This document shows, in pieces, positions 5,481 to 31,306 of a stretch of DNA of 33,079 bases (its first letter is position 1; each line of letters opens with the position of its first letter). The translations under genes were made by a program, and so were the position numbers. The notes below the pieces were generated by a model. That model made no database searches. It saw only the letters and a program-made list of their open reading frames with translations, and was not told the origin of the DNA. The stretch covers positions 1-33,079 of the forward strand of contig JACCYQ010000146.1 in NCBI GenBank assembly GCA_013696395.1, given 5' to 3'. The DNA is from Chitinophagaceae bacterium (GTDB lineage: Bacteria > Bacteroidota > Bacteroidia > Chitinophagales > Chitinophagaceae).

Positions 5481-6335
5481 TTACATTGGATTAGTAGGAC
5501 ATCCGAAGCTGCGTTTGTTTCCAAAACCTCCACCGCCTCCTTTACTTCCCAGGCGCAAAGAGATATTTATGCCGGTAAAATAATACCAGTCTTTTAATTT
5601 AGCGCCACCTCTTTGTGAACCACCGGCAGGGTAAGTGGGATTTCCAAATTGCACTTCATCACCTCGATAAGCAAGATCAACAGCCTGGGGACCTTTAAAG
5701 GCAAGTAACTCAGCTTCATCAGCATAATTGGTACTTACATCGTCCAGGTAATCGGTAAATAATTTTCTTAAACCAAGTTCAGCACCAATGCGAACATTAT
5801 CGTTTAAGGCAAACCGTAAGCCTCCGCCAAATGGAATAGCCAATTGCGTTAGTTTATATGGCTTTTTGTAACCGGGTAAACCCTGGCCTTCCGTACTTAA
5901 ATCCTGCAAGTGAACATGCTCCCCTTTTGTATCGTAAGTATATGGACTAAAATGAAAAACGGCTGCTCCACCAAAGATATAAGGCGATAGCCGGCGTTCA
6001 TATAAATTAAAGAAATAGTATTCGCCAACAACACTAAATTCAGAAATGGTGGATTCGAAACTAAGGTTTCGGGCTTTTAATGAGCTGTCTTCATTATAAA
6101 AATCAGCACCATTCACTTTGGCATAAGTGTAAGCGGCACGTAACAGAAATTTATCTGTTATTTCGTAATGGGCAGTAAGTCCGATAGCACCATTGGTTTG
6201 CTTGATATCAAAAACTTTATCAACCAGATCACCCTGGTAATTGGCCAATCCACCATATGCACCAATATGTAAATTCTGAGCAGAAGTAGCCAGGGTAAGA
6301 ACCAAAAATGCGGATACAATTGCAGCTGACTTCAT
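5481..6335 (-). CDS. DUF6089 family outer-membrane beta-barrel protein (PorG-like)
   Basis: Starting at ATG 6333-6335 gives 284 residues beginning MKSAAIVSAFLVLTLATSA, a clean Sec signal peptide cut before QN; an upstream in-frame TTG would add ten residues ahead of the signal and is unlikely. The mature protein has alternating strands ending in aromatic residues, as in an eight-stranded porin-like barrel. Shared blocks with the upstream neighbour are NYQGDL, RNLSF, TEGQGLP, FTDYLDDVST and KDWYYF. DUF6089 includes PorG of type IX secretion; whether this copy works in secretion cannot be told here. The tail is Gly-rich (KGGGGGFGNKRSFGCPT). Paralogue of the gene at 6532-7419. Confidence 0.85.
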   Translation of the reverse strand: MKSAAIVSAFLVLTLATSAQNLHIGAYGGLANYQGDLVDKVFDIKQTNGAIGLTAHYEITDKFLLRAAYTYAKVNGADFYNEDSSLKARNLSFESTISEFSVVGEYYFFNLYERRLSPYIFGGAAVFHFSPYTYDTKGEHVHLQDLSTEGQGLPGYKKPYKLTQLAIPFGGGLRFALNDNVRIGAELGLRKLFTDYLDDVSTNYADEAELLAFKGPQAVDLAYRGDEVQFGNPTYPAGGSQRGGAKLKDWYYFTGINISLRLGSKGGGGGFGNKRSFGCPTNPM

Positions 6336-6531
6336 GAAACTGAGATTTTTGCTAGGTAATTGCAAATATGAGGCCTAAGCCATAAAATTACGACGCTAAT
6401 TTTTAATGGAAAGAAACTTAACTCCGGCAATCCTCCAATCTGATTTGTCAGACAGTAAATGAAATTTCATGCATTAATGTAAAAAACCTGTCATTAAACA
6501 CCCGCAGTAATAGAAGAATTATGATGGATTT

Positions 6532-7419
6532 TTACCAGCGGGGACATTTAGTATTGTAACTCCGTGTATTAGCATCCGTTAAGTGATTAAACATCGATCG
6601 GATACCACTCCACTTTACTTCCATATGCAACCCAATAAAATAATACCAATCTTTTTCGGTAGGTGTGCCACGGATTTCTTTATCAGATGGATAGTTAGCA
6701 TTGCCGGGTAATTCATCTCCCCTGAAAGCCAGTTCCACAGCTTTTGGCCCGTTTCCATTCAACAAAACCTGCTGATCGGCATACGTAGTACTGACATCAT
6801 CCAGGTAATCTGTAAAAGTTTTACGCTGGTTTAGTTCAAACCCGATATTGAAATGATCACTTACGGCATATCTAAAACCGCCACCGAAAGCAAATGCAAA
6901 CTGTGTAAGCTTATATTTTTGTTTGGATGGATATTCGGGTAAACCCTGTCCTTCAGTGCCAAGTGGCTGGAAATAAACTTTATTTCCCTGCTGATCGATG
7001 GTCCACGGATTGAAATGAAAAATGGCACCACCGCCATAAATATAAGGGGCGAATTTTTTTGTTTCCAGGTCTGTAAGCGAAATTTCCAATCCAGTGTGTA
7101 CCTCTTTTAAACGGGTATTGAAACTCAGGTTTCTTGGTTTCAGGTAATCCCGGTTATAACGGTCCGCCGCCTGTATTTCGCCGGTTGCAACGCCGGTACG
7201 CCAGGTTAAATGAGGATGAAATTTTAATCTTGCAATTAATCCAAAAGCTGATTTGGAGCGATTTACTGTAAAACTATTTGGATTCAGGTCGCCCTGGTAG
7301 TTAATCAACCCGCCAAAAACACTTACACTCAATTTTTCAGTTTGTATCTGGGCTAATAAACTGGTTGGTAATAATAAAAATAATATAAGGATATGTGGGA
7401 TATCAGATCTCAAAAGCAA
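6532..7419 (-). CDS. DUF6089 family outer-membrane beta-barrel protein, second copy
   Basis: A 295-residue paralogue of the next gene downstream, sharing NYQGDL, PRNLSF, GTEGQGLP, KYKLTQ, FTDYLDDVST, RGDE and KDWYYF in the same order. The signal peptide region is LRSDIPHILILFLLLPTSLLA. There is no in-frame ATG between the upstream stop and the signal peptide; the best starts are TTG codons at 7417-7419 or 7411-7413, so translation probably begins at TTG. It begins 66 bases after the epimerase stop, so co-transcription is likely. The C-terminal tail is short and Ser/Arg-rich and, as in its neighbour, ends with a Cys-Pro motif (KCPRW). Function unknown beyond the family. Confidence 0.82.
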   Translation of the reverse strand: MLLRSDIPHILILFLLLPTSLLAQIQTEKLSVSVFGGLINYQGDLNPNSFTVNRSKSAFGLIARLKFHPHLTWRTGVATGEIQAADRYNRDYLKPRNLSFNTRLKEVHTGLEISLTDLETKKFAPYIYGGGAIFHFNPWTIDQQGNKVYFQPLGTEGQGLPEYPSKQKYKLTQFAFAFGGGFRYAVSDHFNIGFELNQRKTFTDYLDDVSTTYADQQVLLNGNGPKAVELAFRGDELPGNANYPSDKEIRGTPTEKDWYYFIGLHMEVKWSGIRSMFNHLTDANTRSYNTKCPRW

Positions 7420-12454: not shown

Positions 12455-14386
12455 TTAATCTTTCCTTTCCATAATCTCATTCCTGGTAGCATTTATAAAT
12501 TCTTCAACAAATTGTACCCCGGTGACTCCTTTGCCCTGTCTCCTTACTGCAACTTTTTCTTCATTCATTTCCTTTTCACCAACTACCAGCATATAAGGTA
12601 CTTTCAACATTTCGGTATCGCGTATCTTCTTGCCAATCTTTTCGTTGCGATCATCAATCTCTGCACGAATATCAGCTTTTTTCAACTTTTGCAAAATTGT
12701 TTTGGCATAGTCCAAATATTTGTCGCTGATGGGCAACAACTTTACCTGTACCGGGGCCAGCCAAACAGGAAACTTTCCTGCATAGTGTTCCAACAAAAAT
12801 CCAATGAACCTTTCATGTGTACCTAATGGTGCCCGGTGAATGATCAGCGGAGTATCGGATTGGTTATTGGCAGTGGTGTAACTCAGGTTAAAACTGCGAC
12901 CCTGGGCAAAATCTACCTGGTTTGTTGCCAATGTAAATTCCCGGCCAATAGCGCTCCAAATTTGTACATCAATCTTGGGTCCGTAAAAAGCAGCTTCATC
13001 CTGCACTTCAACAAAAGGCGTTTCTGTTTTAATTAAAACATCGCGAACCAACAGTTCGGTTTCTTTCCATAATTCAGGTTCATCAACATATTTCTTTCCC
13101 CGTTTCGCAGGATCATGAAGGCTCAGTCGCATCACGTATTTATCAATCCCAAAAATCTTAAAATATTTTCGGTACATATCATTTACCGCTTTGAACTCTT
13201 CATAGAATTGTTCTTTGGTGCAATAAATATGTGCATCATTCATATGCAGGCAACGAACACGCATCAATCCAAATAATTCACCGCTTTGTTCATAACGGTA
13301 ACAAGTACCGTATTCAGCCAACCGGAATGGTAAGTCCTTATAACTCTTAGGCTCAGCCGCAAATATTTTGTGGTGATGCGGGCAGTTCATTGCCTTCAGG
13401 TAATATTTAACACCTTCTAATTCCATAGGTGGGTACATACTATCCTCATAATAAGGAAGGTGACCGCTGGTGAGATAAAGATTTTCTTTGGCAATATGTG
13501 GTGTTACCACTCTTTTATAGCCACCATCTGTTTCTGTTTCTTTGGCAAGTTTTTCCAATTCTTCAATTATTATGGTACCATTGGGCAACCATAAAGGCAG
13601 TCCCGGACCTACATCATCATCCATGGTATAAATGCCCAGCTCTTTACCCAACTTCCGATGATCTCTTTTTTTAGCTTCTTCCAGCATAGCGAGGTGTTCA
13701 TCCATTTCTTTCTGAGATGGAAATGTGACACCATAAACCCTGATGAGTTGTTTATTCTTTTCATCACCTTTCCAATATGCGCCGGCTATATTGGTTAGTT
13801 TGATTGCTTTAATTAAACCAGTGTGTGGAATATGCGGACCTCGACAGAGATCGGTAAAACTTCCCTGGCTATAAAATGTAATTTCTCCATCCTGCAGATT
13901 TTGTAAAAGATCCAATTTATACTGATCTCCTTTTTCAGTAAAATAATTTATGGCTTCCTCTTTCCTTATTTCCTTTCTTTCAAACTTGTTATTTTGGCGG
14001 GCCAGTTCATTCATCTTTTTTTCCAATGCCTGCAAATCCTCTTCAGCCAGTTTGTGATCCCCGAGGTCCATATCATAATAAAAACCATTATCCACAGCAG
14101 GGCCAACCCAGAATTTTACCCCTGGATAAAGTTGTTCAACCGCTTCAGCCATAAGGTGTGCTGATGAATGCCAAAATGTAGTACGCCCTTCATTGTCAAT
14201 AAAAGTGAGCAGTTTTAATGAAGCATCATTTTGTATTGGCCTGCTAATGTCCCAAACCTCTCCATTCACCTGTGCGGCAATGATCTTTCTTGCCAAGCCT
14301 TCCGAAATGCTTTTTGCAATATCGAAAGCAGACACTCCATTTTCATACTTCCGCACCGCACCATCCGGTAATGTAATATTGATCAT
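12455..14386 (-). CDS. thrS: threonyl-tRNA synthetase
   Basis: Charges tRNA-Thr and edits Ser-tRNA-Thr. From ATG 14384-14386 (MINITLPDG) the protein has 643 residues: TGS domain (1-60), editing domain with HSSAH at 73-77 and Cys181/His185 in LCRGPH, class II catalytic core with the zinc Cys in AMNCPHHH and His in CLHMNDAH and IHRAPLGTHERF, then the anticodon-binding domain. In E. coli ThrRS the editing histidines are also 73 and 77, which favours this start over the in-frame ATG at 14426-14428, which would add 14 residues and sits inside a hairpin. First gene of a thrS-infC operon with a structured leader. Confidence 0.97.
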   Translation of the reverse strand: MINITLPDGAVRKYENGVSAFDIAKSISEGLARKIIAAQVNGEVWDISRPIQNDASLKLLTFIDNEGRTTFWHSSAHLMAEAVEQLYPGVKFWVGPAVDNGFYYDMDLGDHKLAEEDLQALEKKMNELARQNNKFERKEIRKEEAINYFTEKGDQYKLDLLQNLQDGEITFYSQGSFTDLCRGPHIPHTGLIKAIKLTNIAGAYWKGDEKNKQLIRVYGVTFPSQKEMDEHLAMLEEAKKRDHRKLGKELGIYTMDDDVGPGLPLWLPNGTIIIEELEKLAKETETDGGYKRVVTPHIAKENLYLTSGHLPYYEDSMYPPMELEGVKYYLKAMNCPHHHKIFAAEPKSYKDLPFRLAEYGTCYRYEQSGELFGLMRVRCLHMNDAHIYCTKEQFYEEFKAVNDMYRKYFKIFGIDKYVMRLSLHDPAKRGKKYVDEPELWKETELLVRDVLIKTETPFVEVQDEAAFYGPKIDVQIWSAIGREFTLATNQVDFAQGRSFNLSYTTANNQSDTPLIIHRAPLGTHERFIGFLLEHYAGKFPVWLAPVQVKLLPISDKYLDYAKTILQKLKKADIRAEIDDRNEKIGKKIRDTEMLKVPYMLVVGEKEMNEEKVAVRRQGKGVTGVQFVEEFINATRNEIMERKD

Positions 14387-14405
14387 TTGTTTGTTTGTGA
14401 TTTTG

Positions 14406-14443
14406 AAAAAATACTTAAGTATTGCCATTCTCTAAAGAATGGC
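14406..14443 (-). promoter_or_regulatory. thrS leader: hairpin, palindrome and U-run
   Basis: On the minus strand a 7-bp hairpin, GCCATTC/GAATGGC (14437-14443 and 14424-14430, 6-base loop), abuts the perfect 14-base palindrome AATACTTAAGTATT (14410-14423), which runs into TTTT (14406-14409). It sits between the predicted transcription start and the thrS start at 14386. It resembles an attenuator or translational operator, but the second stem is weak. The known E. coli ThrRS operator principle makes autoregulation plausible; the loop does not show a threonine anticodon. Confidence 0.4.
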
Positions 14444-14522: not shown

Positions 14523-15566
14523 ATGGTTAGACTTTTACCCAGGATATTATTGCTTTCCAGTATTTTCTTTCTCTACCAATATTCTGCATCAGGTCAGGAT
14601 CTTTCAGGTATTTGGCGTGGGTATTTCATCACCGAAAGTGGGGACAATTATAAACTGGAGTTCCAGATTGTCCAAAATAAATCATTAACTGTAACTGGTG
14701 TTTCTTATTCTTACCTTGATGTACGTTTTTATGGTAAAGCAAATATGACTGGCAGATACATAAAATCTGAAAAACAATTTCAAATCCAGGAAAACCGAAC
14801 TGTGGAAGTAAAGAGTACAACTGGTGGCGGTACCTGTATCATGAATTATAATCTCTCTTATGTAAAGTCTGGCCCTGAAGAATTCCTGGAAGGAAATTAC
14901 CTGGGGAAATCAGAAAACAGGATGAACCCCCGTCTTAATGGCCAATGGGGCGATTGCGGTGGTGGAAAAGTTTTTTTAAGAAGAGTGCATAATAGTGATT
15001 TTTATGTGGAACCTTTTTTAAGAGATCAGCCCCGAAAATCAACACCTAAAACCACGCCTAAAGAATCGGAGAAAAAACCGGAATCTAAAAAGGAAACGCC
15101 TAAGACAACGATCCCACCTGAATCTGAAGTGCTGGATAAAAAACCAGAAGAAAAAAAGATTGAATTCCCTGAATCAAAACCGAAGGAAAAAGAAATAACA
15201 CCTGCACCGCCTATTTTAAAGACCAGGTCAAATGAATTGACACGAACCTTTGAAGTAAATACCAAAAAGGTAATAATAAGGCTTTATGATAATGGAGAAA
15301 TTGATGATGATACCGTTTCCGTTTACTTTAATAATAAATTGGTTTTGGATAGAAAGCGACTATCAACCGTTCCATTAACCATCACACTAAACCTGGAAGA
15401 TGAGAATGAAGAAAATGAATTAATAATGGTAGCTGAAAACCTGGGACGTATTCCTCCCAATACTTCTTTAATGATCGTTCAGGCAGGTGATCAACGATTC
15501 CAGGTAAATATTACATCAACCGATCAAAAAAATGCGTTGGTTCGATTTATTTATCGAAAACCATAA
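14523..15566 (+). CDS. secreted protein of unknown function with Pro/Lys-rich linker, paralogue 1
   Basis: 347 residues, function not recognised. Signal peptide (1-24), then an N-terminal domain (about 25-160) starting QDLSGIWRGYF with GVSYSYLD and two cysteines (105, 145). A linker (165-233) is very rich in Lys, Pro, Glu and Thr. The C-terminal domain (about 236-347) contains YDNGEIDDDTVSVYFNN, STVPLTITL, ENLGRIPPNTSLMIV and QKNALVRFIYRKP. The next gene has the same N- and C-terminal domains without the long linker. The DNGxIDxDT stretch looks like a calcium-binding loop, which is inference. The charged linker could span a wall or periplasm. It is read divergently from thrS; no clear promoter was seen. 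Confidence 0.8.
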   Translation: MVRLLPRILLLSSIFFLYQYSASGQDLSGIWRGYFITESGDNYKLEFQIVQNKSLTVTGVSYSYLDVRFYGKANMTGRYIKSEKQFQIQENRTVEVKSTTGGGTCIMNYNLSYVKSGPEEFLEGNYLGKSENRMNPRLNGQWGDCGGGKVFLRRVHNSDFYVEPFLRDQPRKSTPKTTPKESEKKPESKKETPKTTIPPESEVLDKKPEEKKIEFPESKPKEKEITPAPPILKTRSNELTRTFEVNTKKVIIRLYDNGEIDDDTVSVYFNNKLVLDRKRLSTVPLTITLNLEDENEENELIMVAENLGRIPPNTSLMIVQAGDQRFQVNITSTDQKNALVRFIYRKP

Positions 15567-15626
15567 GCATTACCGTTTGCATAATTTTAAATTCACCAAA
15601 CAGCTTTTTTTCTATTTTCAATAATT

Positions 15627-16466
15627 ATGCTTCGGTTTATCTGCTTTTTAATGCTGCTGTTTGCCTGTTTTCCTGCTTCCACCCAGGAATTAAATGGTAT
15701 ATGGAAGGGAACATTAACAATAAGTCCGGGCGGATGTTTCAGGGTTTATAACCTGGAGTTACAAATCAATATTGACGAAAAACAGCATATCAGTGGAGTA
15801 TCTTATCATTACTCTGACCTGCAGAATTATGTAAAAGAAGAATTTGATGGAAGTTATGATAATAAAGGAATGGTGCTTTCCATCAACGAAATTAAAATAC
15901 TCACTTACCATGTACCTCCTGATTGTGTTCCCTGCATTAAAAAATATGCATTGGTTTATAAAAAGGAAGAAACATCTGAAACTTTGAGTGGCACAATGGG
16001 CGGCCAAATGATCAATAATGCTGGCGTGTGTCCACCTGGCACTATTGTTTTAAAACGCATCAAAGAATCCGCTTTTAAAGAAATCGAAAATAAAAATGCT
16101 TTACCTGGCTCCTTGACCAACCGTAAAAATGAATTGTTAAGAGAAATTAAAGTTGATACCGGTAATATTCGCCTGGATTTTTATGATAACGGGATTATCG
16201 ATGGAGACACTATTTCCGTGTTTGCCAATAACCAGGTTATTGTTTCAAACCAAGGTTTAACTACCGTTCCCATTACCGTTTATGTTCGTATTGATACACA
16301 AAAAATGGAACAGGAAATTGTTATGGTAGGACAAAACCTTGGAACCATTCCTCCTAATACTGCCTTGATGATTGTTACAGCAGGCAAAAAACGTTACCAG
16401 CTTTATCTTACCTCGGATGAGCAAAAAAATGCCATGGTCAGGTTTGTTTATGAAAAACCTGATTAG
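15627..16466 (+). CDS. secreted protein of unknown function, paralogue 2
   Basis: 279 residues, paralogue of the gene 60 bases upstream and probably co-transcribed. Signal peptide (1-19) then QELNGIWKGTL, a domain with GVSYHYSDL and four cysteines (37, 100, 103, 135) that may pair after export, a short linker, and the C-terminal domain (166-279). That domain has YDNGIIDGDTISVFANN, TTVPITVYV, QNLGTIPPNTALMIVTAG and QKNAMVRFVYEKPD. The C-terminal domain is the better conserved part between the two copies. I know no named function for it. It ends 31 bases from the convergent CHRD gene with no visible terminator hairpin between. Confidence 0.8.
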   Translation: MLRFICFLMLLFACFPASTQELNGIWKGTLTISPGGCFRVYNLELQINIDEKQHISGVSYHYSDLQNYVKEEFDGSYDNKGMVLSINEIKILTYHVPPDCVPCIKKYALVYKKEETSETLSGTMGGQMINNAGVCPPGTIVLKRIKESAFKEIENKNALPGSLTNRKNELLREIKVDTGNIRLDFYDNGIIDGDTISVFANNQVIVSNQGLTTVPITVYVRIDTQKMEQEIVMVGQNLGTIPPNTALMIVTAGKKRYQLYLTSDEQKNAMVRFVYEKPD

Positions 16467-16497: not shown

Positions 16498-16992
16498 TTA
16501 CCTGATTTGTCCCCTAACTATTCCTGGTGGATAAAAATTTGAATGTACATTGGCATAAACTTCATCATGCAGTAACAAATCATACTGTTCGGGAGTTAAC
16601 GTTTGTACCATATTTTTACCAAAATCATCAGCAGTATGAGCCAGGAAGATTCGAACCGGTCCATTAACTCCAGTGGCACCGAGATGTACATGGGCAACAC
16701 GCAAAGCATCCCCTTCTTCCAAATGATCAACCATAATTTTTGAATAAAGGGTTCTGTCTGAAGTTAATCTTAAAAGCACCCGGCCTTTGGCAGTTGTATT
16801 GACTGCTGGCACTTCATTTTCACCACTCAGGTGAACTAACATATTCAGAACATAGGGGCCACCGCCATTCCGTGCCATAGGAATGTCGAGGAAATTCGTT
16901 TCATTAGTCTGAACCGGGAGTTCAGCCTTTTGACAGGAAAAGAAATAAAGTGAACAAACCAGCAAAAATGCAAGAAAAAAAAATTTTTTCAT
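16498..16992 (-). CDS. CHRD domain lipoprotein
   Basis: Starting at ATG 16990-16992 (the upstream TTG adds two residues) gives 164 residues. The signal peptide ends in lipobox FFSC, followed by QK after the Cys, which resembles the CQK type of surface-export signal in Bacteroidota lipoproteins (inference). The rest is one CHRD domain: LSGENEVPAVNTTAKGR at the front, VAHVHLGATGVNGPVRIFL in the middle and VHSNFYPPGIVRGQIR at the end. The domain is found in chordin and in many bacterial exported proteins; its molecular role in bacteria is not settled. Single gene, convergent with the secreted paralogue pair. Confidence 0.88.
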   Translation of the reverse strand: MKKFFFLAFLLVCSLYFFSCQKAELPVQTNETNFLDIPMARNGGGPYVLNMLVHLSGENEVPAVNTTAKGRVLLRLTSDRTLYSKIMVDHLEEGDALRVAHVHLGATGVNGPVRIFLAHTADDFGKNMVQTLTPEQYDLLLHDEVYANVHSNFYPPGIVRGQIR

Positions 16993-17211
16993 GATCAATC
17001 ATTTAGAAGATTAAAAAATAAAACGTAGTAGTTTTCATTAATTATTTTGATTGTTCAAAGGGAAAGAAGAGCAGGAAAAGGAAGTTACATAATTAAAAGG
17101 ATTTAATCGGACGAATGAAGGAAATGGTTGCCTGCTGGTTCGATTTTTTTAAGAACAAATAATACCAAACAATATTGAACACAAAAATGTATTAATTAAT
17201 AAATCGGGAAA

Positions 17212-22278: not shown

Positions 22279-23076
22279 ATGAGAAAAATGTTGGCCATTT
22301 GTGCCCTAATTACATTAACCATTATGGGCTGTAAAAAGGACGTTGCTGTTGTAGAGGATGAAAGCATATCACAGGACATTCTAGCCCAGGTTCACCAACA
22401 CGGATTTGGTACTTCTGATGTTAAAAAAGTTGAAGAGGGTTACCTTGTTGAAGGTGATATTATTCTAACCCCGGAATTTTTAAATAGCAAACCTGGTGGA
22501 AATTTTTTACGCATTGCCAATGAAGAACAGTACCGAACTACTAACCTCGTTACCGGAACACCCCGCAACATTACCATGAGTTTACATTCTAAATTATCTT
22601 CACAAGCAGGTTACTCGCAGGCTTTGCAGGAAGTTGCCGATAGGTATAATGCAGAAACCATTGGACTTACCTTTAGTGTAGTTGCTTCAGGTGGAACTAT
22701 TCAATTTGTAAATGGAAATGGACCTTATCTTGCTTCCGCAGGCTTTCCAAGCGGTGGTAATCCATATAACAAAGTGACTGTTTATTCCCGAAATATAGGT
22801 AAAGGCACTACTCCAACTTTCATTAATTACCTGGCTACAATATTAGCGCATGAAGTAGGACATTGTATTGGATTTCGTCATACTGATTATATGAACAGGG
22901 CATACAGTTGTGGTGGTTCTGCTACCAATGAAGGTGCTTCTACAGTTGGTGCAGTGCATATAGCTGGTACACCTACAGGTCCTGATGCTGGTTCATTCAT
23001 GCTGGCATGTATTGGTTCAGGCCAAAACAGGCCGTTTAATACTAATGATAAAATTGCTTTAGATGTTTTATATTAA
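22279..23076 (+). CDS. M57-type zinc metalloprotease, lipoprotein
   Basis: 265 residues. The lipoprotein signal ends at Cys18 (TIMGC). The catalytic zinc motif is HEVGHCIGFRHTD (His191, Glu192, His195, His201), the metzincin form HExxHxxGxxH followed by Asp203, as in the Peptidase_M57 (dual-action HEIGH) family. The region before it is the usual protease B-like domain with a stretch predicted as soluble alpha/beta; there is no large C-terminal extension. Cysteines at 196, 211 and 244 may bridge. It is divergent from the S8 peptidase gene, so the two exported peptidases may share a control region. A strong terminator follows 19 bases after the stop. Confidence 0.9.
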   Translation: MRKMLAICALITLTIMGCKKDVAVVEDESISQDILAQVHQHGFGTSDVKKVEEGYLVEGDIILTPEFLNSKPGGNFLRIANEEQYRTTNLVTGTPRNITMSLHSKLSSQAGYSQALQEVADRYNAETIGLTFSVVASGGTIQFVNGNGPYLASAGFPSGGNPYNKVTVYSRNIGKGTTPTFINYLATILAHEVGHCIGFRHTDYMNRAYSCGGSATNEGASTVGAVHIAGTPTGPDAGSFMLACIGSGQNRPFNTNDKIALDVLY

Positions 23077-28772: not shown

Positions 28773-30026
28773 ATGCAGATTTTTAAGTTTGGTGGGGCTT
28801 CGGTTAATAATGTGGATCGTATTAAAAAAGCAGCGCAAATCCTTTATCAATATAAAAATGAAAAAACGCTGGTGGTTATCTCCGCTATGGGTAAAACAAC
28901 CAATGAACTGGAATTGGTTGTTCATGCTTTTTATGAAAAGGATACGGATAAATCACTTGCGCTGTTCCATGAAATAAAAAGAAAGCATCTGGATATTGCG
29001 GCAGAATTGCTAAAAAAACCATTACCTGTATTACTTGATTTTTTTACAGAAGTTGAATGGTTGCTGCATGATAAACCGGTTAAACATTTTGATTATTTTT
29101 ATGACCAGGTTGTATGTATTGGAGAATTATTATCCACCGCTATTGTAAGTGCGTATCTTAATGAAACAGGTCTTGAAAACAAATGGCTGGATGTAAGGGA
29201 TATATTCCGGACGGACAATAATTTCCGGGATGCTATGATCGATTATCAACAAACCACCCTGAATATTCATGAAACCGTCTGGCCACAATTTGAAACATCT
29301 AGCCTGGTGATAACGCAGGGTTTTATTGGCGCAACTTCTGATAATGAAAGCACCACCCTGGGACGGGAAGGCAGTGATTTTAGTGCGGCTGTATTTGCTA
29401 ATATTCTGGATGCTGAAAATTTGATTATCTGGAAAGATGTACCTGGTGTTATGAATGCCGATCCTAAAAAATTTCCCGATGCTGTTTTGATTCCGGAATT
29501 GAGTTATGTAGAAGTAATTGAAATGGCTTATTATGGTGCACAGGTCATTCACCCAAAAACCATCAAGCCTCTCCAAAATAAGCAGATTCCTTTGTATGTG
29601 AAATCATTTTTAGACCCGTCATTACCCGGCACATTGATAAAAAAGCAGCTATTAATAAATCTTCCACCCGTTATTGTATTTAAAGAAAACCAGGTGATGA
29701 TTGAATTCAGAACCAGGGATTTTTCTTTTGTAGGTGAAGAGCATGTTACTCGCTTGTACCAAATTTTTAAGCAACACAAACTAACACCAAATCTTACCCA
29801 AAATACGGCAATCAGTTTTTTATGTGTGATGGATGATCATGAGGAAAAAATTGAGCAACTATCTCTGGAATCGGCTGAAGTGTTCGAAGTTAATGTGACC
29901 AGAGAATTACAGTTGCTTACTGTAAGGCATTTCAAAGAAGCACATCTTAATGATATCATTAAAGAACGTACAATTTTATTAAGGCAGGAAACTAAAGATG
30001 TAGTCCAGGTTTTAATGGCGGGTTAA
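28773..30026 (+). CDS. lysC: aspartate kinase
   Basis: 417 residues, monofunctional. It phosphorylates aspartate, the first step to lysine, threonine, methionine and diaminopimelate. The kinase domain begins with KFGGASV (5-11), with the family Thr changed to Ala, and has LGREGSDFSA at 197-205 and the helix MAYYGAQVIHPKTIKPL. The C-terminal part (about 280-417) is an ACT-type regulatory region, at the short end for the class. No fused homoserine dehydrogenase. The last 15 bases overlap the convergent L,D-transpeptidase gene; no terminator hairpin is seen there. Possibly feedback-regulated by end-product amino acids; that is family knowledge, not seen here. Confidence 0.95.
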   Translation: MQIFKFGGASVNNVDRIKKAAQILYQYKNEKTLVVISAMGKTTNELELVVHAFYEKDTDKSLALFHEIKRKHLDIAAELLKKPLPVLLDFFTEVEWLLHDKPVKHFDYFYDQVVCIGELLSTAIVSAYLNETGLENKWLDVRDIFRTDNNFRDAMIDYQQTTLNIHETVWPQFETSSLVITQGFIGATSDNESTTLGREGSDFSAAVFANILDAENLIIWKDVPGVMNADPKKFPDAVLIPELSYVEVIEMAYYGAQVIHPKTIKPLQNKQIPLYVKSFLDPSLPGTLIKKQLLINLPPVIVFKENQVMIEFRTRDFSFVGEEHVTRLYQIFKQHKLTPNLTQNTAISFLCVMDDHEEKIEQLSLESAEVFEVNVTRELQLLTVRHFKEAHLNDIIKERTILLRQETKDVVQVLMAG

Positions 30027-31196
30027 GCTGCTTGAAAATTCAATTGTAAAACTTTGCTTCATTTTTTTTGCAACGGCTTTATCATGCAACATAGCAGGTT
30101 TCCAGATAGGCATTTTTTCCAGGCGGGTTATAAGATCTTCATTGAAATCATTATTCACTCCGTTTATAACTTTAAAATTGGTAGGCGTCCCGTCTTTATC
30201 TACAATAAATTCAACCTGCACGTGAGCTTTGGTAATATTGGCAGGCAACAGGTCCGACATTTCCTTCCCCACTTTATCCAGGTATGACAAAAAAGCTTTT
30301 CCACCGCCGGGAAATTCGGGCCATTGGTGAACTACGTCTGCCAGTTCTGTAATAGTTCTTTGGCGATGAACAACACTTGGCCTGGTTAGTTTTGTTTTGA
30401 TAACTTCCTTATGTATGGTATGCACCATATATTGGCCTTTATCATCCGTGGTAATTACAGGCAGTTGCCTGAAGCGTTCAAAATAATTATATACCTCTTT
30501 CAATTTTTCAGTAAAAGGCTTAAGGCTGGGATTATTGAACATCAGGTTATTGAGATAATCCTGGCTTCTTTTTACGGTGAACCGGATAGGGAAAATGTGA
30601 ACGGGAATAAAATCCTGTCCCTGGTTTTTTGCATGTGCCGAAAGAATATAAATTTCTTCAATTTGTGGATCGGTTACCGGAATACAACCTACTGTTACAC
30701 AACTTCCATGAATATAAATATCACCCCCGGGTCTTTGAACATCGCTTAAAATACGGTCTGATGAATTGGGGTAATTGATACCTAGTGATAAATGATACGA
30801 ACTCTTAGGATTGAATTCGTTTATATAATAAAAACCTTCTGGTACCTGGTAATCACCTTCTATTCTTTTGGGACCTAATGTACCCGCAAGTGCACAAACC
30901 CGGTAAGTTTTAAATAATTGAAAAGTATCCTGGATATTGTTCTTAACCCAGATTTCCAACTGACTGTCATATTTAAATGACCTGATATAAATAAAATTGG
31001 CCGGCCATTTTAGTTTTTTCTGAGCAAATTGCTTTTGTAAGGTATCTTCTCTCCGGTTCATCGCCTCACTGGCACGTGGAAAGGCTTTTTGATAATCAAT
31101 AAATGTGGATGCAGATGTATATGCCGTTCCACCCTTTTGAGCAGAAATAGATTGAAAGATCAGGCTGGTAAATAATATTAGCAGAATTCTATTCAT
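30012..31196 (-). CDS. L,D-transpeptidase (YafK-like) fused to a TonB C-terminal domain
   Basis: ATG 31194-31196 gives 394 residues starting MNRILLILFTSLIFQSISA, a Sec signal peptide cut before QK; two more ATGs upstream add four residues. Residues about 65-205 hold an L,D-transpeptidase/YafK-type catalytic domain with the active-site block IYIHGSCVTVGCIPVTD (His163 and Cys171 in this numbering). Residues about 285-390 match a TonB C-terminal fold: QWPEFPGGGKAFLSYL, ITKAHVQVEFIVDKDGTPTN, then MPIWKPAMLHDKAV. There is no membrane span between, so it is not a normal TonB. Probably acts on peptidoglycan in the periplasm, with the second domain as a binding module. Single gene, upstream of the HPPD stop by 168 bases. 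Confidence 0.86.
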   Translation of the reverse strand: MNRILLILFTSLIFQSISAQKGGTAYTSASTFIDYQKAFPRASEAMNRREDTLQKQFAQKKLKWPANFIYIRSFKYDSQLEIWVKNNIQDTFQLFKTYRVCALAGTLGPKRIEGDYQVPEGFYYINEFNPKSSYHLSLGINYPNSSDRILSDVQRPGGDIYIHGSCVTVGCIPVTDPQIEEIYILSAHAKNQGQDFIPVHIFPIRFTVKRSQDYLNNLMFNNPSLKPFTEKLKEVYNYFERFRQLPVITTDDKGQYMVHTIHKEVIKTKLTRPSVVHRQRTITELADVVHQWPEFPGGGKAFLSYLDKVGKEMSDLLPANITKAHVQVEFIVDKDGTPTNFKVINGVNNDFNEDLITRLEKMPIWKPAMLHDKAVAKKMKQSFTIEFSSSLTRH

Positions 31197-31306
31197 AGTT
31201 AACATCATAAAAACGGGCTGTATTGATGGTTTATTATAAGATAGGTGATCAGCCTTGTAAATATAGCCTGAAATAAAAAAAAATAATAGTATAAGTTATA
31301 CAGAAA

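Follow-up and report, generated by a model that had tools for sequence, protein, structure and literature searches.

The window, that is the whole stretch of 33,079 nucleotides analysed (contig JACCYQ010000146.1 of a Chitinophagaceae bacterium), contains two adjacent genes on the forward strand, separated by an intergenic gap of 60 bases. The first encodes P1 (14523..15566, 347 aa), which comprises a leader, a barrel, a long linker and a C-terminal domain (CTD), and the second encodes P2 (15627..16466, 279 aa), with the same order of parts and a short linker. Both were delimited by sequence, alignment and BLASTP, and P2 also by a structure model. In P1 the Sec leader covers residues 1-24 (14523..14594) and is followed by Gln25, the GxWxG up-and-down beta-barrel domain residues 25-160 (14595..15002, placed from the alignment with the fold of the P2 model), the Lys/Pro/Glu/Thr-rich linker residues 161-233 (15003..15221, from the P1/P2 boundaries and the linker statistics of first genes) and the CTD residues 234-347 (15222..15563, from the alignment and profile matches). 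In P2 the Sec leader covers residues 1-19 (15627..15683) and is followed by Gln20, the barrel residues 20-150 (15684..16076), the short linker residues 151-163 (16077..16115, from the model and the linker statistics of second genes) and the CTD residues 164-279 (16116..16463), for which structure models predict nine strands.

The divergent neighbour of the pair is thrS (12455..14428, reverse strand), used in the locus survey as a synteny marker and standing outside the function proposed here. A CHRD-domain protein (16498-16998, reverse strand) is convergent with P2. The rest of the window includes two adjacent DUF6089 (PF19573) outer-membrane barrels (5481-7419, reverse strand), one of which (6532-7419) reached 115 bits (3.6e-33) with the NCBIfam T9SS PorG model, whose cut-off is 130; an S8 subtilase (PF00082; 19463-22192, reverse strand) that ends in a T9SS sorting tail of type A (TIGR04183, 2.3e-10); an M57 HEIGH-type metallopeptidase (PF12388, 1.7e-45; 22279-23076, forward strand); and an L,D-transpeptidase (YkuD; 30012-31208, reverse strand) whose C-terminal part is TonB_C-like (24.0 bits against a cut-off of 24.6).

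P1 and P2 are paralogous (BLASTP E 2e-52, 162 bits), and the resemblance is not due to chance since their two-domain layout recurs in 147 of the 174 CTD-bearing ORFs of the first locus set, as identified by a barrel profile (142 of the 174 by the GxWxG pattern). A preliminary description, made from the sequence alone, had proposed two adjacent exported proteins with both domains in common, the C-terminal one better conserved, and a long Lys/Pro/Glu/Thr-rich linker in the first. The ORFs are as described there and all the quoted motifs were found in the alignment; identity is 42 of 129 aligned residues (32.6%) in the barrel and 56 of 115 (48.7%) in the CTD, and the linkers, with the boundaries set in this analysis, measure 73 residues in P1 and about 13 in P2. 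By eye, both ORFs have a Sec-type leader directly ahead of a Gln (SASG before QDL and PAST before QEL), and Gln immediately precedes the first strand in 140 of 147 barrel-bearing relatives, a pattern that supported the placing of both leaders. Gln after the leader is the pattern of the Bacteroidetes Q-rule, as presented in PMC5837995.

GxW at the first strand is a mark of the calycins. The structure prediction for P2 (pLDDT 91.6, pTM 0.75) has an N-terminal part similar to avidins, nitrobindin and lipocalins (Foldseek best E 7e-4; VIA Z 12.4 against 4jnj_C, 107 aligned, rmsd 3.1), and model and VIA together give an eight-strand up-and-down barrel. Calycin-type barrels share with the P1/P2 barrel this up-and-down fold and the GxW motif, the VIA Z for P2 being 11-12.5 over about 103-121 residues; unlike them, the P1/P2 barrel is coupled to the CTD and lacks a Pfam match above cut-off, the curated lipocalin and avidin profiles included among the Pfam matches listed. 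On the modelled fold, the domain is a calycin/avidin-like barrel of the ligand-binding type, its ligand being putative.

The CTD is an all-beta domain of ~115 residues which forms a real, unnamed family of its own. In the scans of P1, P2 and relatives it was not assigned above cut-off to any model of Pfam or NCBIfam: P1 had no Pfam match, P2 had only sub-threshold CagX and Neprosin_AP, and neither had an NCBIfam match above cut-off. The 95 members of one alignment (A4), scanned one by one, gave no family recurrent above cut-off among all 24 NCBIfam families and 25 of the 35 Pfam families shown. Flavobacterial and divergent members had no Pfam or NCBIfam family above cut-off for the CTD, the matches of protein L123 falling in its OmpA and PorE-like parts, outside this domain. 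Searches of solved structures by sequence, with P1 and with the profiles A5 and A4, found nothing below E 0.03. Modelled alone (A5 model), the CTD is predicted with pLDDT 88.5, pTM 0.82 and nine strands, and on this model it is a compact and real domain. Foldseek against the PDB and viral models gave nothing at E <= 0.001 (best E 6e-3), and the VIA fold search nothing above noise (best Z 6.4, where models without a clear match typically have a best Z of 7-8). This weak outcome does not show a new fold, and since the fold searches gave nothing above noise there is no known calcium site to transfer to the CTD. PADLOC assigned neither P1 nor P2, tblastn found no match in plasmids (P2 query) or phages (P2 CTD query), and a literature search covering mostly open papers, by motif strings as well, found nothing on the CTD. 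The domain had been described as one without a known name, and the Pfam check agreed, with no strong match to a characterised family.

The signature of the CTD consists of two loops, D-x4-D-x-D and N-x-G-x3-P-N-T, which were located by conservation counts and hold the best conserved positions in 217 aligned CTDs. In P1 they are D256...D261-x-D263 (15288..15311) and NLGRIPPNT (N306-T314, 15438..15464), and in P2 D187...D192-x-D194 (16185..16208) and NLGTIPPNT (N237-T245, 16335..16361). The eight best conserved P2 positions are P243, D194, N244, G239, D192, D187, N237 and T245: D194 and P243 were found in 217/217 CTDs, D187 in 216/216, D192, G239 and N244 in 216/217, N237 in 213/217 and T245 in 208/217, one CTD having Lys at D192. 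The loci L009-L088 were chosen by degenerate patterns built from these same loops, so that conservation among them is partly circular. A recount was made on 82 CTDs not chosen by pattern, although still found by a profile containing the loops, and here D187 was conserved in 81 (plus one gap), D192 in 81, D194 in 82, N237 in 79, G239 in 81, P243 in 82, N244 in 81 and T245 in 74. The acidic DNGxIDxD positions, previously singled out as conserved, are thus almost invariant, the three Asp at 81-82 of 82.

In the CTD model the loops come after strands 20-27 and 68-77, the second and sixth of nine, which would put both at one end if successive strands alternate; on the model, the two loops probably share one end. 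The invariance of their Asp and Asn residues points to a metal site rather than to catalysis, and the three Asp and two Asn are most simply explained by a site for a divalent metal. Binding of calcium, suggested earlier for the acidic loop, would be consistent with the conserved loops and is putative, as deduced from sequence.

The CTD is located at the extreme C-terminus, its match ending 0-29 residues before the stop in 174/174 ORFs (median 3), and is preceded by very different fronts. Among the longer fusion proteins of the family survey, which were picked largely by frame length and a missing barrel match, an M16 protease was identified in L119, a TPR/PD40/OmpA arrangement in L121, LamG plus HYR in L124, PG_binding_1 within the linker of L136 and long coiled-coil-like repeats in L120 and L127, whereas several divergent GxWxG barrels also precede the domain and L131, L150 and L152 contain two CTDs each. 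OmpA is found ahead of the CTD in three of the 45 proteins of one set (A6), and peptidoglycan-linked fusions are 4 of these 45, a set picked largely for unusual look. The layout TPR/beta-propeller/OmpA, typical of the PorE family of T9SS proteins, is common to L121, L122 and L123 ahead of the CTD; L123 reached 150.8 bits against the PorE model, with a cut-off of 600, and its CTD comes after OmpA, unlike in PorE. OmpA and PG_binding_1 domains act on peptidoglycan, so the CTD copies fused to them are probably periplasmic, and L124, with its LamG/HYR front, would be equally compatible with surface display and with the periplasm. Action on peptidoglycan by the C-terminal domain of PorE is reported in PMC7192894. 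The linker may span the wall or the periplasm, as had been proposed, and the PG_binding_1 domain in one linker and OmpA before three CTDs are consistent with this.

The source genome (83.65% complete) contains 7 CTD copies. The profile identified the domain (E <= 0.001) in 44 of 296 Bacteroidota genomes, comprising 8 of the 11 listed genomes from its own family, 2 from its order, 33 from its class and one from elsewhere in the phylum, the latter a doubtful match since it is a 56-column fragment with three in-frame stops. Full-length profile matches were found in 52 of 60 Chitinophagaceae genomes (48 of the 54 good ones). In one flavobacterial family (f5) the copies are mostly short, roughly 190-275 residues, with weak scores (E 7e-4 to 2e-10), and stronger copies are also present in genomes G134 and G222. 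The expectation of a widespread uncharacterised domain, with a conserved acidic loop and fused to varied N-termini, was borne out by these genome and partner surveys. One locus of G222, an f5 genome (L096, G222:C19), carries a row of three CTD genes, of which two belong to the strong Chitinophagaceae type, possibly by horizontal transfer. Beyond Bacteroidota, one pattern scan of genome contigs was covered, with the best 80 of 571 matches. A contig labelled Williamsia sp., of Actinomycetota (L061, JADCRZ010000018.1), has a CTD pair beside thrS-infC, all of Chitinophagaceae type, and is probably mislabelled or part of a mixed bin.

The paired arrangement was surveyed in 80 named-genome loci, the best 80 of 571 matches. 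Among them thrS adjoins a CTD gene in 58 loci, always on the opposite strand, and lies beside the pair in 50 of the 53 two-copy loci; the three exceptions are L050 and L057, which start at a sequence edge, and L042, with two distant copies. In the tree built from 174 CTDs, with arbitrary root and few columns, a clade of 65 rows (100/97) holds 48 of the 51 thrS-linked second genes, and a separate one of 61 rows (100/97) holds 53 of the 59 first genes; the second genes L061, L080 and L083 group elsewhere, on the first-gene side. Linkers of first genes have a median of 97 residues and a range of 70-160 (n=50, all long), against a median of 11 and a range of -4 to 21 in second genes (n=51). The paired genes are separated by 42-185 bases (28 of 53 loci measured). 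From thrS synteny, the separate clades and the linker rule, the duplication is old and the difference in length is a kept property; the pair is older than the diversification of the Chitinophagaceae sampled. A tandem duplication with linker gain, taken as recent, had been suggested and is not upheld. Since all 50 measured first genes are long-linkered and many more distant CTD relatives also carry linkers, the second copy is no less likely to have lost a linker than the first is to have gained one.

Among the gene families flanking these loci, named by eye among the best 80 of 571 matches, the most frequent are thrS (56/80 in this count), an ABC-F-like ATPase (24/80), a convergent outer-membrane-receptor-like protein (23/80) and a peptidase-like one (19/80), and none of the commonest flanking families looks functionally linked to the pair as an operon partner. 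L011 and 13 other loci have a family of exported-looking minus-strand proteins of ~250 aa just upstream of the pair, and the thrS match begins 518-1016 bases away in 13 of 28 measured loci. In L037 (3172-4414) the first gene is split over two overlapping frames, with the barrel in one and the CTD in the other, which is a frameshift or an assembly error.

A close known parallel in layout is found in the T9SS sorting domains of types A (TIGR04183/PF18962), B (TIGR04131/PF13585) and C (cl41395), which are also C-terminal beta-sandwiches of Bacteroidota, often placed after a linker, according to PMC10202324; CTD-bearing genomes also have a T9SS. That the CTD is a further sorting class, carrying the protein through the outer membrane to be then cleaved or to serve as surface anchor, is nevertheless rather unlikely. 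Its strict C-terminal position, the Lys/Pro/Thr-rich linker ahead, the LamG/HYR partner, the all-beta prediction and the presence of the translocon gene sprA in the source genome, in all 44 phylum-sample genomes that have a CTD and in 59 of the 60 Chitinophagaceae genomes speak for it; sprA, however, is also present in 184 of 252 CTD-negative genomes, and the co-occurrence is confounded because shared ancestry can explain the difference. No T9SS sorting model matched any of the 95 members (all 24 NCBIfam and 25 of 35 Pfam families shown), whereas the subtilase of the window, acting as control, was recognised as type A (TIGR04183 2.3e-10). For the type C domain (ChiA type) there was no NCBIfam match, in a library whose coverage of that model is uncertain. 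The CTD further differs from sorting domains in being larger (about 110-115 residues, nine predicted strands), in its internal acidic loop pair and in lying in some copies behind peptidoglycan-binding domains; OmpA in three CTD proteins and PG_binding_1 in L136 argue against the sorting role, and no dedicated PorP/SprF-like partner was seen by eye among the 22 commonest flanking families.

The calcium-dependent xylan-binding modules CBM36 and CBM60 are small sandwiches with acidic loops, and a CBM36/CBM60-type glycan binder, in which the loop calcium would coordinate sugar hydroxyls, is quite improbable as an account of the CTD. The top VIA match is indeed 2xfd, a vCBM60 with cellobiose (83 residues aligned at Z 6.4, rmsd 3.0), and by eye a fragment of the 2xfd chain shows a similar order of strands and loops. 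This Z is nevertheless below the 7-8 typical of models without a clear match, so the likeness is a weak one of fold without significant sequence relation: the profile comparison of CTD and CBM60 scored 9.8, which at least 12 of 60 shuffles exceeded (one of them gave an unexplained 131, the next best being 15.2), and the CBM60 model PF16841 matched 0 of 148 Bacteroidota genomes, the source genome included. Loops with conserved Asp, Asn, Gly and Pro often occur as purely structural turns, and this, together with the great diversity of CTD partners, would suit a structural cap or dimerisation module whose loops serve folding and hold at most a structural metal. We consider such a module unlikely, since eight near-invariant loop residues, kept behind fronts as different as barrels, a protease and OmpA proteins while the sandwich varies, seem more than a turn usually needs. 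That the CTD is a VirB9/CagX/TrbG-like domain, of the kind found in conjugation or type IV secretion systems, was rejected as extremely improbable. CagX (PF03524) matched P2 with E 8e-4 at residues 244-276 and was the most frequent Pfam family in the alignment, with 8 of 95 members and a best E of 8e-4, but the P2 match covers the last two strands only, with 19.7 bits against a cut-off of 34.2; P1 has no match, and no conjugation genes were seen by eye among the window ORFs.

The reading we prefer, tentatively and as somewhat short of probable, is that P1 and P2 are an old exported pair of the cell envelope in which the CTD is a metal-holding docking module and the linker sets reach; here the export route, the metal, the docking, its partner and the role of the linker are what we infer, and the analysis shows the two-domain layout, the conservation, the fusions, the age of the pair and the linker rule. 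Each protein would consist of a ligand-binding-type barrel, a linker and a C-terminal beta-sandwich, where the two loops, probably placed at one end, would jointly hold a divalent metal, most likely calcium. The loop face would dock on a fixed envelope partner (an outer-membrane protein, a glycan or peptidoglycan), where the CTD would hold front domains of different kinds. The linker, 70-160 residues long in first proteins and about 11 in second ones, would set how far the barrel may reach. Against this reading stand the fold searches with nothing above noise, the small number of peptidoglycan-linked fusions in a set chosen for its oddity, the front of L124 and the one CTD with Lys at D192. 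A broader proposal, which we regard as unlikely, is that the CTD is a mobile calcium-gated targeting or docking domain, an address tag beside the T9SS domains by which barrels, proteases, lectin-like and peptidoglycan-binding proteins would share one common receptor in the outer membrane or peptidoglycan.

The CTD is present in up to seven or more copies per Chitinophagaceae genome and reaches the Flavobacteriaceae, and many envelope proteins are annotated without it because the scans assigned it to no model of Pfam or NCBIfam. If its copies dock to one receptor, the CTD would add to the ways in which these bacteria direct proteins to a given site in the envelope. The pair of a long-reach and a compact protein, kept across the sampled family, would be a natural experiment on linker length.
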